Positions 28,271 through 35,813 of a stretch of DNA of 35,867 bases are shown here, piece after piece (the stretch's first letter is position 1; each line of letters opens with the position of its first letter). The position numbers and the translations under genes were made by a program. The notes under the pieces are model-generated. The model was given only the letters and a program-made list of their open reading frames with translations, had not been told where the DNA came from and made no database searches. Origin of the DNA: Myxococcales bacterium (GTDB taxonomy: Bacteria; Myxococcota_A; Polyangia; Polyangiales; Houyiibacteriaceae). The stretch spans positions 1-35,867 of the forward strand of contig JAACVI010000224.1 of NCBI GenBank assembly GCA_009992505.1. The letters run 5' to 3'.

Positions 28271-29584
28271 ATGAAGAAGCCCGTGAAAATCCCCAAGGCC
28301 GAAGGCCGTTTAGGCGTTCTACTGCCCGGCATGGGAGCCGTCGGCACGACGTTCATCGCGGGCTGCCTGCTCGCGCGCAAAGGCCTGGCCGAGCCCATCG
28401 GTTCCCTGACCCAGATGGGCACGATCCGCCTGGGCAAGCGCACCGATGGACGCAGCCCGAAGATCTCCGAGCTCGTCTCCCTGGCGAAGCTCGACGATCT
28501 CGTCTTCGGCGGCTGGGACCTCTTCCCCGTGAGCGCCTACGAGGCCGCCAAGGAGGCGGACGTGCTCAAGCGCGAGCATCTCGACGCCATCAAGGACGAG
28601 CTCGAGGCCATTCGCCCCATGCCCGCGGTCTTCTTCCCCGAGTTCGTGAAGCGCTTGCGCGGCGAGAACGTGAAGACCCAGACCAACAAGATGGAGCTGG
28701 GCGAAGCGGTTCGTCAGGACATCCGCGACTTCATCAAGAACAACGGCCTCGATCGTGCCGTCGCCGTCTGGTGTGGCTCGACCGAGGTCTATCGTGAGCC
28801 CACCGAGGTCCACGCGAGCCTCTCGGCCTTCGAGCAGGGCCTGCGCGACAGCAGCCCCGACATCAGCCCCTCGCAGGTCTACGCCTGGGCGTGTCTGAAG
28901 GAGGGCGTGCCCTACACCAACGGCGCTCCTCATCTGACGACGGAAGCGGACGCCCTGCTGGAGCTGGCGCGTGAGACGCGCACGCCCGTCTGCGGCAAGG
29001 ACTTCAAGACGGGCCAGACCCTGATGAAGACGCTGATCGCCCCCGGCCTGCGCGCACGCATGATCGGCATCCAGGGTTGGTTCTCGACCAACATCCTCGG
29101 CAATCGCGACGGCGAAGTCCTCGACGATCCCGACAGCTTCAAGTCCAAAGAGGTCAGCAAGCTCGGAGTCTTGGAGACGATCCTTCAGCCGGAGCTTCAT
29201 CCGAAGCTCTATGGCAACATGTACCACAAGGTCCGCATCAACTATTACCCGCCGCGCGGAGACCAGAAGGAGGGCTGGGACAACATCGACATCTTCGGTT
29301 GGCTCGGCTATCCGATGCAGATCAAGGTCGACTTCCTGTGTCGCGACTCCATCTTGGCGGCGCCGCTGGTGCTCGACCTCGCGCTCTTCATGGACCTGGC
29401 CAAGCGCGCGGAGATGAGCGGCATCCAGGAGTGGCTGTCCTTCTACTTCAAGGCGCCCATGACGGCGCCCGGGCTGTACCCGGAGAACGATCTCTTCGTA
29501 CAGTTGATGAAGATGAAGAACATGCTTCGCTGGATGAACAACGAAGACCTCATCACGCACCTCGGCCACGAATACTACGACTGA
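28271..29584 (+). CDS. myo-Inositol-1-phosphate synthase
   Basis: LLPGMGAVGTTFIAG Rossmann; GSTEVYR; GKDFKTGQTLMKTLIAPGLRARMIGIQGWFSTNILGNRDGEVL; KVRINYYPPRGDQKEGWDNIDIFGWLG; RBS-like GCAGGAG upstream of ATG 28271. Confidence 0.92.
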   Translation: MKKPVKIPKAEGRLGVLLPGMGAVGTTFIAGCLLARKGLAEPIGSLTQMGTIRLGKRTDGRSPKISELVSLAKLDDLVFGGWDLFPVSAYEAAKEADVLKREHLDAIKDELEAIRPMPAVFFPEFVKRLRGENVKTQTNKMELGEAVRQDIRDFIKNNGLDRAVAVWCGSTEVYREPTEVHASLSAFEQGLRDSSPDISPSQVYAWACLKEGVPYTNGAPHLTTEADALLELARETRTPVCGKDFKTGQTLMKTLIAPGLRARMIGIQGWFSTNILGNRDGEVLDDPDSFKSKEVSKLGVLETILQPELHPKLYGNMYHKVRINYYPPRGDQKEGWDNIDIFGWLGYPMQIKVDFLCRDSILAAPLVLDLALFMDLAKRAEMSGIQEWLSFYFKAPMTAPGLYPENDLFVQLMKMKNMLRWMNNEDLITHLGHEYYD

Positions 29585-29613
29585 GCTCGAGCCCCGAGCC
29601 TGTCGCTCATATC

Positions 29614-29655
29614 GAGACGCCCCGTGGATCGAAGGGTCCCGGGGCGTTTCGTTTG
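29614..29655. terminator. Bidirectional-looking intrinsic terminator between convergent genes
   Basis: GAGACGCCCCG...CGGGGCGTTTC stem (one wobble), core ACGCCCCG (29617-29624)/CGGGGCGT (29640-29647), then TTTCGTTT. Confidence 0.7.
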
Positions 29656-29682
29656 CGACCGCTTCCTGTCCGACTGGTGGGA

Positions 29683-31434
29683 CTAGTGGGGCGTCTCGCC
29701 GCGAATGCGCACCACGGTCGCTTGCTGGTCCGCCGTCGGATAGACGCCGTGCCAGCCCTGGGGCATCGGTGGACTGGCCCAGCCGAAGATCTGGTGCGCG
29801 TCGGGAGGCGACATGTTGATGCAGCCGTGGCTCTTGGGACGCCCGAACGCGTTGTGCCAGAAGGCCGAGTGCAAGGCGTAGGCGAGCTGGAAGTACATGA
29901 CGTAGGGGACGTCATCGATGGAGTACGGGCCGTCGATGGCGTTGTCGCCGTCCATCGTGTGCGTGAGGTGCTTGGACGAGATCGTGAACACGCCCGTCGG
30001 GGTGCGGTGGTCACGCGAGGGGTCGTCCTCGCGCTCGATACGACCGCTGGAGATCAGCGTGGTGAAGACGGGAACTGTGCCCTCGTAGGCGACGAGCACC
30101 TGCCGCGACAGATCGACGTCGATCCACTTCTGCCCAGCGGCGACCTCGGAGGGAGGGTCCGAGCGCTCCGCGAGCACGACGTCGGAGTCCCGGTAGAGAT
30201 GGCCTTCGGGATCGCGGAAGTAGGTGTGACCGCCCTGTTCGACCCGGCCCGCGACGCGAAAGGCGTAGTGATAGCCTGGCGCTCCTCGTCCACGATGAAC
30301 CCGTCCGTTGACGGTCTCGGCGTAGAAGCCGGTCCGACTCGAGAGCACCCAGCCCACGGGCAAGCGCCAGGCGTCGTCCGTCGCGACCGCGGCGTCCCGA
30401 GCCGCGTCCGGGCCCGCGTCGCCTGGGGCAGGAGCCACCGCCGTGGGCTCCCGTGGCGGCGCGAGATCGACGCCGTGGAAGTCGCTTCCCTCACGCACGA
30501 CCACCGCGTTGTAGGGCACGAAGCCGTTGGATTGGGTGCGCCAGTAGCGGCGCGCGCCGCGACGGAAGTCGCGATCGAGGCTGACGAAGAACCCGCGCGT
30601 CACCCAGCGCATCACGACGCTGTCCGAGTCCGCGCTCAGCCCCTCGAGGGTCTCCACGCCGGCGTCGGTCGGTTCGGTCGAGTCGTCGTCCGCCGAGGGC
30701 GTGGCGAGCCCGTCGCCGGATGCGCTCGGCGCGGGGTCGCCGGCGGCGGTGCGGGCCACCGCGCTGTTGCCAGCGGAACCACCGTCACCGGCCGTCTCAG
30801 CGCCACCGGGACCCGCATCGGGCGGGGCTTGGCCTGGGATGTGATAGCCCTCGAACTCGGCGGCCTCCTCGTCGGTGGGCATGCGGCGATACATGGGGAC
30901 GCGCCGGCGGATGAGCCCGTATTCGTAGGGTAAGGGCCGATCGAAGCGGGGCTGGCGCGCGCGGATGGCCGGCAGGCGCCTGCCGTCGAAGGCGATCACG
31001 TCGCGCCCGTTGCACACGAAGCCGCCCACGGTGAGCTCGTACCAACCGCCACGGCAGCCCTCGAAACCCAGGGGCTCACCCAGCGTCGCGGTGAAGACCG
31101 AGCCCGCGCGCAGGTAGCCGCCGCGAGTGGCGTCGGGGCTCGCGCCGTTGCGCACGTTGACCACGAAGCGCTTGGTGAAGATGCGCTTGGGCGGCAGCGT
31201 GGGATCCGGATGCACGGTGTCGCGCCGTGCGTCGCGAGCGTCACGCTGCGGCGGGCTCGCGTCTCGGGCGGGCGCGGGAGCGGGATCGGGATCGGCGCTA
31301 CCGCAGCCGACGAGCGCGAGCAGTCCGAGGCCGAGCGGCCACAGAAGGCGTCCGCGAGTCGGACGGTGAATCCCCCGCGAATCCTGAACCGAGTCCGTGG
31401 GCAGGTGTGCTGGGCGTAGCGCGAGCAACTGCAT
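29683..31434 (-). CDS. L,D-transpeptidase (YkuD) lipoprotein with SH3-like domain
   Basis: Lipobox LALVGC; SH3-like GGYLRAGSVFTATLGEP...GGWYELTVGGFVC; catalytic ALHSAFWHNAFGRPKSHGCINMSPPDA. Exact start uncertain. Confidence 0.88.
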   Translation of the reverse strand: MQLLALRPAHLPTDSVQDSRGIHRPTRGRLLWPLGLGLLALVGCGSADPDPAPAPARDASPPQRDARDARRDTVHPDPTLPPKRIFTKRFVVNVRNGASPDATRGGYLRAGSVFTATLGEPLGFEGCRGGWYELTVGGFVCNGRDVIAFDGRRLPAIRARQPRFDRPLPYEYGLIRRRVPMYRRMPTDEEAAEFEGYHIPGQAPPDAGPGGAETAGDGGSAGNSAVARTAAGDPAPSASGDGLATPSADDDSTEPTDAGVETLEGLSADSDSVVMRWVTRGFFVSLDRDFRRGARRYWRTQSNGFVPYNAVVVREGSDFHGVDLAPPREPTAVAPAPGDAGPDAARDAAVATDDAWRLPVGWVLSSRTGFYAETVNGRVHRGRGAPGYHYAFRVAGRVEQGGHTYFRDPEGHLYRDSDVVLAERSDPPSEVAAGQKWIDVDLSRQVLVAYEGTVPVFTTLISSGRIEREDDPSRDHRTPTGVFTISSKHLTHTMDGDNAIDGPYSIDDVPYVMYFQLAYALHSAFWHNAFGRPKSHGCINMSPPDAHQIFGWASPPMPQGWHGVYPTADQQATVVRIRGETPH

Positions 31435-31557: not shown

Positions 31558-33057
31558 ATGACCTCCGCACCCAAGCCGCACTCGAAAGCCATGGATGGCG
31601 AGCCCCATGATTCGTGGCGGCGCCTCGACTCGCGCCGAGCCGCCTGGGCCGCCGGTCTGTCCCTGCTGGCGCACGTGCTGGGAGTCTTCGCCCTCTCGGC
31701 CGTGGCCGCGCGGCCGCAGATCGACATCAGCTTCGAGCTGCCAGCGGAGGTCGAGTTCGGGATGACGGACGGCATGAGCGCCGACTCGGCCCAGGGGCCC
31801 CTGTCGCAGCCCGAGGCCGCCCCCATGCCCAACGCGGGCGGAGATGGCGTCGAGGGCGCGGGAATGGACGCAGGGACGCCCCACGACGCGGGACAGCCCC
31901 ACGACGCGGGCAGACGGCGCAGGCACCATGACGCCGGAGCGCCCGACGACGCGGGGAGGCCTGGCGACGCGAGCGCCCACGCAGCGGGAGACGCGGCGAT
32001 GGCGGACGCGGGGCGACGGGACGCGGGGGCCGCCACGGGTGACGGCGGTCAGGGCCGGGATGGCGGGCCCGGTGGACCAGGAGGAGCGGACGGCGCCGGC
32101 CGGATTCCGCCGGGCGCGCAGCTGGCGATCCGCCTGAACATGGAGCGCATCCGCCAGTCGCCCCTGGCACCCGAGGTCCGGCGCCTGCTGATGGCGATCC
32201 CCGACTGGCACGCGCTGCTCGACGGATCGGGCATCGATCCCATGGCGGATCTGGATCGTCTGCTCTTGGCGTCGCCGAACCTGCAGCGAGAGCGGCTCGT
32301 GCTCGCGGGACGACATCATCGCGATCAGGCCTACGCCGAAGCCGCCGCCGAGCGCCTGGCCACGAGCCAGCACACGACCACCGCCTTCCACGCGCGGGAC
32401 GGCGTGCGTGTCGCGCCGTGGCGCAACCCGGACAGCACGGCCCGCGTGGTGGCGCTGCTGGGCGATCACCACTTCATCATCTGCCGCCCGGAGGATCTGC
32501 CGCGCGTGCTGGCCCTGATGCACGTACGCGCCGAGGACCAGCGGCTCGACGCGGGCGTCCCCGCCATGGCCGCCGCGGACGCCCTGCTGGCCATGGGCGA
32601 CGACGAGGTGATGAGCTTCGAGATCGAAGGCGCGCGCCGCTTCGTCCGCGCGGGGCGTGTGGACGCGATGCCTCTGAGCGGTCGACTCTCGGTGCGTGAG
32701 ACCGCGGGCGACACGGTGCAGCTCGCGGGGCAGGCTCGCTTCGAGGACGCGGCCCAGGCCCGCGGCGCCAAGGAATTCTGGGCAGCGCAGCTCGCCCAGC
32801 TCGCGCGCAGCCCGATGGTGTCTCTGGTCGGGCTGTCCACGCCTTTGCGCAGGCTGACCTTCCGGGTCGAGGCCGAGCAGGTCTACTTCGAGACCTCCCT
32901 GGGCGCGGGGCAGGTGCGCCTCTTGCTCGGCTACCTCGAGGGCATGCTGGTTCAGTACCGTCGTGACCGCGAGCCACGGAACCAGGGCACGCCGGGGCCC
33001 AACACGCGCGCTCCGACGGCGCCTCCTGCGCATCCCGACGCGGGCGCAGGCGGCTAG
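31558..33057 (+). CDS. Membrane-anchored protein with DAG-rich linker, function unknown
   Basis: TM AAWAAGLSLLAHVLGVFALSAVAA; linker MDAGTPHDAGQPHDAGRRRRHHDAGAPDDAGRPGDAS...; C-terminal globular domain. Confidence 0.8.
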   Translation: MTSAPKPHSKAMDGEPHDSWRRLDSRRAAWAAGLSLLAHVLGVFALSAVAARPQIDISFELPAEVEFGMTDGMSADSAQGPLSQPEAAPMPNAGGDGVEGAGMDAGTPHDAGQPHDAGRRRRHHDAGAPDDAGRPGDASAHAAGDAAMADAGRRDAGAATGDGGQGRDGGPGGPGGADGAGRIPPGAQLAIRLNMERIRQSPLAPEVRRLLMAIPDWHALLDGSGIDPMADLDRLLLASPNLQRERLVLAGRHHRDQAYAEAAAERLATSQHTTTAFHARDGVRVAPWRNPDSTARVVALLGDHHFIICRPEDLPRVLALMHVRAEDQRLDAGVPAMAAADALLAMGDDEVMSFEIEGARRFVRAGRVDAMPLSGRLSVRETAGDTVQLAGQARFEDAAQARGAKEFWAAQLAQLARSPMVSLVGLSTPLRRLTFRVEAEQVYFETSLGAGQVRLLLGYLEGMLVQYRRDREPRNQGTPGPNTRAPTAPPAHPDAGAGG

Positions 33058-33088: not shown

Positions 33089-33194
33089 CGTCGCGGCCCA
33101 ACACCGTCGCGGCCCAACACCGTCGCGGCCCAACACCGTCGCGGCCCAACACCGTCGCGGCCCAACACCGTCGCGGCCCAACACCGTCGCGGCC
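33089..33194. repeat. 16-bp perfect tandem repeat, about 6.6 copies
   Basis: CGTCGCGGCCCAACAC repeated at 33089, 33105, 33121, 33137, 33153, 33169 plus 10-bp partial at 33185. Confidence 0.98.
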
Positions 33195-33282: not shown

Positions 33283-33603
33283 TCAGTTCACGAGGTCCTT
33301 GAGCTTCTTCAGCGGCGTCGCCCGCACCTTCTTGGAGGCCGGCTTCGCGTCCCGCATCACGTCCTGGCCCGTGAAGGGGTTCTTCGCCATGCCGGCCTTG
33401 CGGGCCGGCACCTTCTTGACCTTGAGCTTGAGAAGATCCGGGATGACGAACTCCCCCGGACCGCGCTTCCCCAGCTCCTTCTTGATCAGATCACGGAGTC
33501 CTTCGAAGACTGCGCCGACTTCCTTCTTGGTCAGCTGCGTCTTGTCAGAGATCTCGCCGATGATCTGGGCCTTCGTCATCCGCTTGGTGGTTGGCATGGT
33601 CAC
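33283..33603 (-). CDS. HU-family DNA-binding protein (variant)
   Basis: TKAQIIGEISDKTQLTKKEVGAVFEGLRDLIKKELGKRGPGEFVIPDLLKLKVKKVPARKAGMAKNPFTGQDVMRDAKPASKKVRATPLKKLKDLV. Confidence 0.85.
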   Translation of the reverse strand: MTMPTTKRMTKAQIIGEISDKTQLTKKEVGAVFEGLRDLIKKELGKRGPGEFVIPDLLKLKVKKVPARKAGMAKNPFTGQDVMRDAKPASKKVRATPLKKLKDLVN

Positions 33604-33986: not shown

Positions 33987-34424
33987 CTAGGAGCGCGCCG
34001 CGGCGCACAGCACGCGCGTCTTTTCGAGCATCACGCGCTCCTCTTCGGCGTCGCGATGGTCGTAGCCCAAAAGGTGCAAAAGTCCGTGAGCGACCAGCAT
34101 CGTGACCTCGAATGAGATCGTCTTGCCGCTGGCGTGCGCCTGTTTCGCTGCCGTGGGCAGGGAGACCACGACGTCCCCGAGTAGGTCTGGAGAGAGCTCG
34201 GCGCCCTCCCCCTCGGACATGGCGAAGGCGAGGACGTCCGTAGGTCGATCGACGCCGCGATAGTCGCGGTTGAGCTCATGAATCACCGCGTCATCGCACA
34301 GTAGGATCGACAGCTCGGCCTGACTTCGCCCCAGGGACGCCAGCATGAGGTCGGCGCGCTCGCGCAGCCGTCGGGGAGAGATGGGGCGGACGCGGAGACC
34401 GCGCGTGTGCACATAGGCGGGCAT
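33987..34424 (-). CDS. ybeY: Endoribonuclease YbeY
   Basis: LNRDYRGVDRPTDVLAFAM...GDVVVSLPTA...LVAHGLLHLLGYDHRD metal-binding motif. Confidence 0.94.
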   Translation of the reverse strand: MPAYVHTRGLRVRPISPRRLRERADLMLASLGRSQAELSILLCDDAVIHELNRDYRGVDRPTDVLAFAMSEGEGAELSPDLLGDVVVSLPTAAKQAHASGKTISFEVTMLVAHGLLHLLGYDHRDAEEERVMLEKTRVLCAAARS

Positions 34425-34478
34425 CGAGAGAGGCTCATGTCGCAGCGCCTTCGGGTCAAGCTGCTATGCTCCGCCGCC

Positions 34479-35813
34479 ATGATCGAAAGCGTGTTGATAG
34501 CGGAGCGGGGCGAAGCCGCCGCACGGGTCGCCAGGAGCTGCAAGCGCCTCGGCATTCGGGTCGTCGGGTTGCGTGGAGACGACTCTTCGTCGGGGGTCCA
34601 TGTGGCCGCCTGCGACGAGACGCTCACCGTCGCCACCGGCGCGGACGGCAGGATCCCAGCGGAAGCCGTGGCCGCCGCGGCGATCGAGGCGAAGGTGCAG
34701 GTGGTGCATCCGGGACACGCGGGCGCCCGCGGCCAGCTCGCGCTGGCGAAGGCCCTGGCGGAGACGTCCATCGGTCTCGTGGGTCCCTCCCTCGAGAGCC
34801 TCGCGCGTCTGGCTTCTCCATCCTCCGTGCGCGAGGCCATCGCCGAGGCGGGCCTCACCCAACCGGCCTGCTCGGAACCCTTCGGCGGTGACGACGATCC
34901 CCGCCCCTTCGCCGCCCAGCTGCCCGCGCCGTGGACCGTGCGCGCAGCCGACGCCGAGACGGATCCGTTCGCGACGCCGCTCGTGGACGAAGACGATCTC
35001 TTCGCCGAGGTGGTCAAGAGGACGCGCGGCAACGACGTCGCCTTGGTGGTCGAGCAGGCGTATCACCGCTCCCGCGTGCTCGAGGTTCCCGTGCTCGTGG
35101 ACCAGGCCGGCACGCAAGAGCCGCTGCCCGAGCGCGAATGCAGCATCACGGTCAGCGGCCAGCGCCTGCTCGAAGAGAGCCCGAGCCCGGCGCTCGTCTT
35201 CCACGGCGAAGGCGAGGCCATCCGTGGCTTCTTGCTCGAGGCGGCCTGCGCCGTCACGCGGGCTCTGGGCGCCACGGGCTTGCTGCTCGTGCGCTTCGCC
35301 CTGGACGCCGATGGCCGCTTGGCCGTGATCGGGGTGCGCCCTGGCCTGCCGGTGCAGGACGCGATCACGGGCATGACGACCGGCCTCGACCTGGTCGAGT
35401 TCCAGCTCGAGATCGCCGCGGGACGCCCGCTGCCGGCGCGCGTGACCGAGGTGGAGCCCACGGGTCATGGCTGCGGCGCTTGGCTCGTCGCTCCGTCGAA
35501 CGAGACCTTCGACGCGGTGGTGGAGGAGCTGCGTTGGCCGCCCTTCCCCCAAGGCAAAGTGCGCACCGAGCCCTCCGCCAGCGTGGGCAGCACCGTGCCT
35601 CCAGACGATCGCCCCCGCATCGCCAAGATCACGACCTACGCGCCGACGCGACATCAGGCGCTGCTCCTGCTCGACCGCGTGCTGACCGAGAGCCGGGTCG
35701 CGCCCTACCAGACGAACCAACGTCTGCTCGGCCAGATCATCGGCGACGAGGCCTTCCGCGCCGGACGTTACGACACCGAATTCGTGCGTCGCCTGCTCAC
35801 GACGCCTCCCTGA
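34479..35813 (+). CDS. Biotin carboxylase-like protein, probable pseudoenzyme
   Basis: VLIAERGEAAARVARSCKRLGIRVVGL; VVHPGH; ERECSITVSGQRLLEESPSPAL; MTTGLDLVEFQLEIAAGRPLP; overall biotin carboxylase order but ATP-grasp residues replaced. ATG 34479. Confidence 0.8.
   Translation: MIESVLIAERGEAAARVARSCKRLGIRVVGLRGDDSSSGVHVAACDETLTVATGADGRIPAEAVAAAAIEAKVQVVHPGHAGARGQLALAKALAETSIGLVGPSLESLARLASPSSVREAIAEAGLTQPACSEPFGGDDDPRPFAAQLPAPWTVRAADAETDPFATPLVDEDDLFAEVVKRTRGNDVALVVEQAYHRSRVLEVPVLVDQAGTQEPLPERECSITVSGQRLLEESPSPALVFHGEGEAIRGFLLEAACAVTRALGATGLLLVRFALDADGRLAVIGVRPGLPVQDAITGMTTGLDLVEFQLEIAAGRPLPARVTEVEPTGHGCGAWLVAPSNETFDAVVEELRWPPFPQGKVRTEPSASVGSTVPPDDRPRIAKITTYAPTRHQALLLLDRVLTESRVAPYQTNQRLLGQIIGDEAFRAGRYDTEFVRRLLTTPP

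Follow-up and report, generated by a model that had tools for sequence, protein, structure and literature searches.

Biotin carboxylase (BC; AccC in E. coli, EC 6.3.4.14) carries its dimer and holoenzyme contacts on the A and C domains. R16, R19, E23, F363 and R366 are dimer-interface residues of AccC, and R292 and Q294 serve bicarbonate. A non-catalytic relative of a carboxylase component is known from plants, where the BADC proteins, which are related to BCCP but not biotinylated, tune the plastid acetyl-CoA carboxylase complex. The roles assigned to E201, Q233, E276, E288, E296 and R338 fit the site description for the C. aurantiacus and E. coli enzymes (PMC11077971). In the two-subunit pyruvate carboxylase of Methylobacillus flagellatus, an engineered BC with residues 131-201 (the B domain) deleted was purified and assembled like the wild type and served to solve the holoenzyme, but was inactive (PMC5059739). 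The same study discusses the R19E and E23R mutants of BC (PMC5059739). Searches of open-licence papers yielded no description of a family of BC pseudoenzymes or of catalytically inactive BC paralogues.

The locus and its neighbours

The window (the whole stretch of DNA that was analysed, 35,867 nucleotides from a Myxococcales bacterium) contains a gene for a putative biotin carboxylase pseudoenzyme, here called BCL. Its features and the anchoring neighbours are as follows.

33283..33603, minus strand: gene for an HU-type DNA-binding protein, assigned from sequence; synteny anchor
33987..34424, minus strand: ybeY, the divergent neighbour; synteny anchor
34425..34478, no strand: intergenic region of 54 bp that separates the divergent genes ybeY and BCL
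34479..35813, plus strand: BCL coding sequence, ATG start, 444 codons plus stop (444 aa)
34479..34856, plus strand: A (N-terminal) domain, residues 1-126; Biotin_carb_N match at 1-107; RGE, R16 and R19 kept
34857..35060, plus strand: degenerate ATP-grasp B domain (lid), residues 127-194, equivalent to AccC about 131-203
34944..34970, plus strand: former glycine-rich ATP loop, about residues 156-164; AADAETDPF replaces ASGGGGGRG
35325..35372, plus strand: former metal/bicarbonate strand, residues 283-298, VIGVRPGLPVQDAITG
35754..35774, plus strand: conserved C-terminal FRAGRYD motif, residues 426-432, common to intact relatives

The same series of genes (c7, HU, ybeY, BCL and, in most cases, eno) is found again across the GTDB family of the host and in other families of the order; relative to BCL, ybeY is divergent and eno usually convergent. 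The preliminary description of this DNA had BCL standing alone and divergent from ybeY. This is accurate, as the two genes are 54 bp apart and the BCL contig holds no match to a BCCP or a carboxyltransferase. Likewise, no linkage of a BCCP or carboxyltransferase gene to BCL was found in the neighbourhoods examined, where it is ybeY, HU and eno that constantly accompany BCL.

The conserved neighbour c7 (31558-33057, plus strand), present at the locus in 21 genomes, encodes a protein that has a hydrophobic stretch at its N-terminus and a linker rich in G, A and D. A probable L,D-transpeptidase-like lipoprotein, assigned to its family from a C-terminal SHGCINM motif only, is encoded at 29683-31434 on the minus strand and is syntenic in 17 genomes. 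The gap between c7 and HU contains a perfect tandem array (33089-33194) of 6.6 copies of the 16-mer CGTCGCGGCCCAACAC, with a 100% match.

Predicted fold

BCL matched the Pfam profiles Biotin_carb_N (61.7 bits), CPSase_L_D2 (65.7 bits) and Biotin_carb_C (48.8 bits) in that order, all above the cut-off, and could be aligned over its full length to solved BCs. Against the NCBIfam accC equivalog it scored 166.7 bits, below the cut-off of 626.5, a threshold that is not decisive alone, as an intact relative at the same locus (L085, 509.7 bits) likewise falls below it. The AlphaFold2 model, built from a 12-row family alignment, reached a pLDDT of 91 and a pTM of 0.91. All 50 PDB matches listed by Foldseek for this model were biotin carboxylases or BC-containing carboxylases; E. 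coli BC chains among them (e.g., 2j9g) gave a TM of 0.85-0.87 at 26-27% identity. Domain profiles and model together place BCL in the biotin carboxylase (AccC) fold family, and it is predicted to fold still as a BC, in agreement with the end-to-end BC architecture read in the preliminary description, which had proposed these profile and structure comparisons. For a lidless member, a model built from a six-row alignment reached a pLDDT of only 50 and was set aside.

Loss of the active site

In an alignment with E. coli K-12 AccC, 13 of the 15 checked residues serving ATP, Mg, bicarbonate or biotin were replaced in BCL. Neither the ATP lysines (K116 to P114, K159 to R155) and the glycine loop (IIKASGGGGGRGM, aligned with TVRAADAETDPFA in BCL), nor the Mg ligands (E276 to R272, E288 to G285), nor the set of E296, R292, Q294 and R338 expected of a catalytic BC were retained. 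The catalytic E296 is replaced by Q293 and the biotin residue R338 by W335, and the strand substitutions are N290 to R287, R292 to G289 and Q294 to P291. Further replacements were H209 to V200, Q233 to T224, H236 to G227 and K238 to R229, leaving only E201 (E192 in BCL) and V295 as kept positions. With these changes, BCL should be unable to bind MgATP and bicarbonate productively or to carboxylate biotin.

The motifs previously called from the letters alone (a missing ATP loop, arginine for the lysine of HQK, loss of metal ligands and of the catalytic glutamate) were correct by the AccC alignment; the extent of loss was understated, as it also takes in the two lysines for ATP, the two glutamates for Mg and the arginine for biotin. 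Sequencing error or misassembly was ruled out because the copy in a genome of the same genus (G001), 84% identical to BCL overall, has identical letters at all 15 active-site positions.

Two further BCs are encoded in the host genome; of 19 positions checked, one keeps 18 and the other all 19. On contig C111, a BCCP gene (29337-29555) is directly followed by a BC gene (29578-30900), forming an intact accB-accC pair, and the second intact BC shares contig C120 with a carboxyltransferase and a BCCP. The search for an intact accC elsewhere, suggested in the preliminary description, was therefore positive, and catalysis is covered in the host.

Conservation and selection

Positional orthologues of BCL beside ybeY, HU and eno were found in 32 of the 34 genomes of the GTDB family, which are mostly MAGs. 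The other two genomes (G020 and G032) had no BCL; as a ybeY match was absent there too, the locus is probably missing from these assemblies. All sequences were read, and every one of the 32 family copies was degenerate, 12 of them at full length and 20 without the B domain (AccC about 131-203). The degenerate form is thus conserved in related genomes. A GLP motif at 289-291 replaces R292-I293-Q294 across the family; among 24 members, G289 and P291 were present in all and L290 in 22. Also conserved among these 24 were RG 10-11, R16, R19, E233, P235, DLV 304-306, GH 329-330, DD 376-377, P389, R391, H392 and FRAGxYD 426-432.

Beyond the FRAGQYD motif, two members carry RG/DRG-rich low-complexity C-terminal tails, of 114 aa (L011, G012) and 199 aa (L003, G016). 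The tail of the G007 protein is RS/KP-rich, and the intact BC of G041 ends in a basic stretch.

Between the host and its same-genus relative (G000-G001), dN/dS was 0.128 over 443 codons (Nei-Gojobori). By segment, values were 0.137 for residues 1-126, 0.317 for the lid (127-194) and 0.078 for residues 195-443; identity was 60% in the lid, the fastest-evolving part, and 90% over residues 195-443. Close lidless pairs gave 0.077 (G013-G002) and 0.123. Deeper pairs approach saturation at synonymous sites, and dN/dS values from them were not relied on. These ratios indicate purifying selection on BCL. The suggestion in the preliminary description that selection maintains a non-catalytic role agrees with the family-wide conservation, the low dN/dS and the clean lid deletions in sister genera. 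By these comparisons, BCL is a conserved pseudoenzyme, having lost its catalytic residues under purifying selection across species, and it very probably combines catalytic death with a retained function.

Probable origin from an intact enzyme

Intact BCs occupy the same locus in other Polyangiales families (G041, G047, G069, G070, G071, G042 and G037). Also outside the family, the G053 copy is partly broken, and within one GTDB genus the G072 copy (L168) is broken while that of G071 (L167) is intact, making this a good pair for timing the loss of catalysis. A partly degenerate family at the same locus (G035, G044, G054, G178 and G181-G183) has lost both Mg ligands and mostly kept E296 and R338.

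Trees were computed both from all columns and after removal of those for the active site and the lid, and were rooted on BCs from other phyla. The full set fell inside a Myxococcota clade in which the basal members are intact BCs. Even after this removal, the host family and the next family (f3) grouped with strong support, so that shared losses alone do not explain the grouping of these two. For G053 and G072 relative to the main clade, support was 50/85, and the trees are compatible with anything from one to three losses of catalysis. Clean loss of the B domain alone required 2 or 3 changes on the trees. BCL branches are long, and the proteins evolve faster than their intact relatives.

These comparisons indicate that BCL descends from a working stand-alone BC that lay between ybeY and eno in Polyangiales; its association with ybeY, HU and eno was in place before catalysis was lost. 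The preliminary description proposed that catalysis had been lost, and the 13 of 15 replaced residues and the family-wide conservation of the degenerate form bear this out. Catalytic residues at shifted positions or orthologues with intact active sites would have spoken against it. The former were not found; the latter are present at this locus, though only in other families of the order. As they are confined to those families and look like the ancestral state, they do not contradict the pseudoenzyme claim.

Proposed function

BCL has a dead active site and a lid that is either relaxed or gone, and its other parts are strongly constrained; therefore, function should reside in the A and C domains. 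Together with the engineered lidless precedent, this leads us to prefer a role through protein contacts. The ATP-grasp lid is decaying and has been cut out cleanly in several genera, leaving an A plus C core that may work through protein contacts. BCL would then be a non-catalytic partner of the cell's catalytic biotin-dependent carboxylases, in a hetero-oligomer or as a competitor, and would tune how they assemble or how active they are. We infer binding as its function and a carboxylase component as its partner; the role envisaged in the preliminary description, as regulator or scaffold within an acyl-CoA carboxylase, is likewise conjectural. That BCL partners the cell's biotin-dependent carboxylases is a tentative reading, falling a little short of an even chance. 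Of the dimer-interface residues, R19 is present in 24, R16 in 22 and R366 in 21 of 24 family members. E23 is R in BCL, as in intact relatives, and F363 is not kept, so that the set is only partly diagnostic. Conserved core residues may also reflect folding alone.

YbeY, encoded by a constant neighbour of BCL, is an rRNA endonuclease, and BCL could have a role unrelated to carboxylation: it might act in translation or RNA metabolism, or sense a small molecule with the former active-site cleft. The absence of BCCP or carboxyltransferase linkage, the constant ybeY-eno neighbours and the long basic C-terminal tails in a few members (G012, G016 and G007) leave room for such a role, as does synteny that predates the loss of catalysis. 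However, most members, including the window copy, have no basic tail. Furthermore, the divergent ybeY and the usually convergent eno do not imply a shared operon, and synteny alone is weak evidence of function. We regard an unrelated role as possible if doubtful, and rate it only slightly below the carboxylase-partner role.

A different ATP-dependent or ligase activity, making BCL a new ATP-grasp enzyme, is improbable. The CPSase_L_D2 match of 65.7 bits and the presence of K159 and E201 in some full-length family members are consistent with it, but both Mg ligands and the glycine loop are lost, K116 is lost in most members, and 20 of 32 members are without the lid while the rest of the protein is conserved. 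Neutral decay of a redundant paralogue on its way to a pseudogene could account for the long, fast-evolving branches and the relaxed lid. However, a long open frame is present in all 32 family genomes covering the locus, dozens of positions are invariant and a new motif has become fixed, and dN/dS in the closest pairs (0.08-0.17) is similar to, and no higher than, that of ybeY in the same pairs. Conservation and dN/dS thus led us to reject pseudogene decay, which we consider very improbable. A working BC with its catalytic residues at shifted positions or supplied in trans is scarcely credible, as nothing beyond the fold supports it, the alignment of 24 family members revealed no compensating conserved residues in the former active site, and 20 members are lidless.

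Returning to the carboxylase-partner reading, a fuller version would see a Polyangiales pseudoenzyme family that arose at one locus, losing its active site step by step and later, perhaps repeatedly, the lid as well. Its conserved A plus C core, with the fixed GLP motif, would have a new binding function, possibly as a regulator of acyl-CoA carboxylase. Taken whole, this is conceivable but somewhat doubtful.

Comparison with known systems

A single locus thus presents a nearly complete series from working enzyme through partial loss to lidless pseudoenzyme, which lets one ask what a carboxylase subunit is kept for after catalysis is lost. BCL-type proteins pass Pfam cut-offs and may be labelled biotin carboxylases in annotation and enter metabolic models as such.

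BCL shares with E. coli AccC its domain order, length, fold, RGE, R16, R19, R366 and C-terminal domain, but is without the ATP, Mg, bicarbonate and biotin residues and has no adjoining accB. The intact stand-alone Polyangiales BCs are positional orthologues with a FRAGQYD-type motif and represent the branch from which BCL arose; in contrast to BCL, they keep all active-site residues. The lidless BCL genera lack the same segment as the engineered 131-201 deletion of Methylobacillus flagellatus and resemble its natural counterpart, although the latter is a laboratory construct whose holoenzyme with CT and BCCP is known. Like BADC, BCL is a non-catalytic paralogue of a carboxylase component, for which a tuning role is proposed; BADC proteins, however, are BCCP relatives with a known partner, whereas BCL is a relative of BC.
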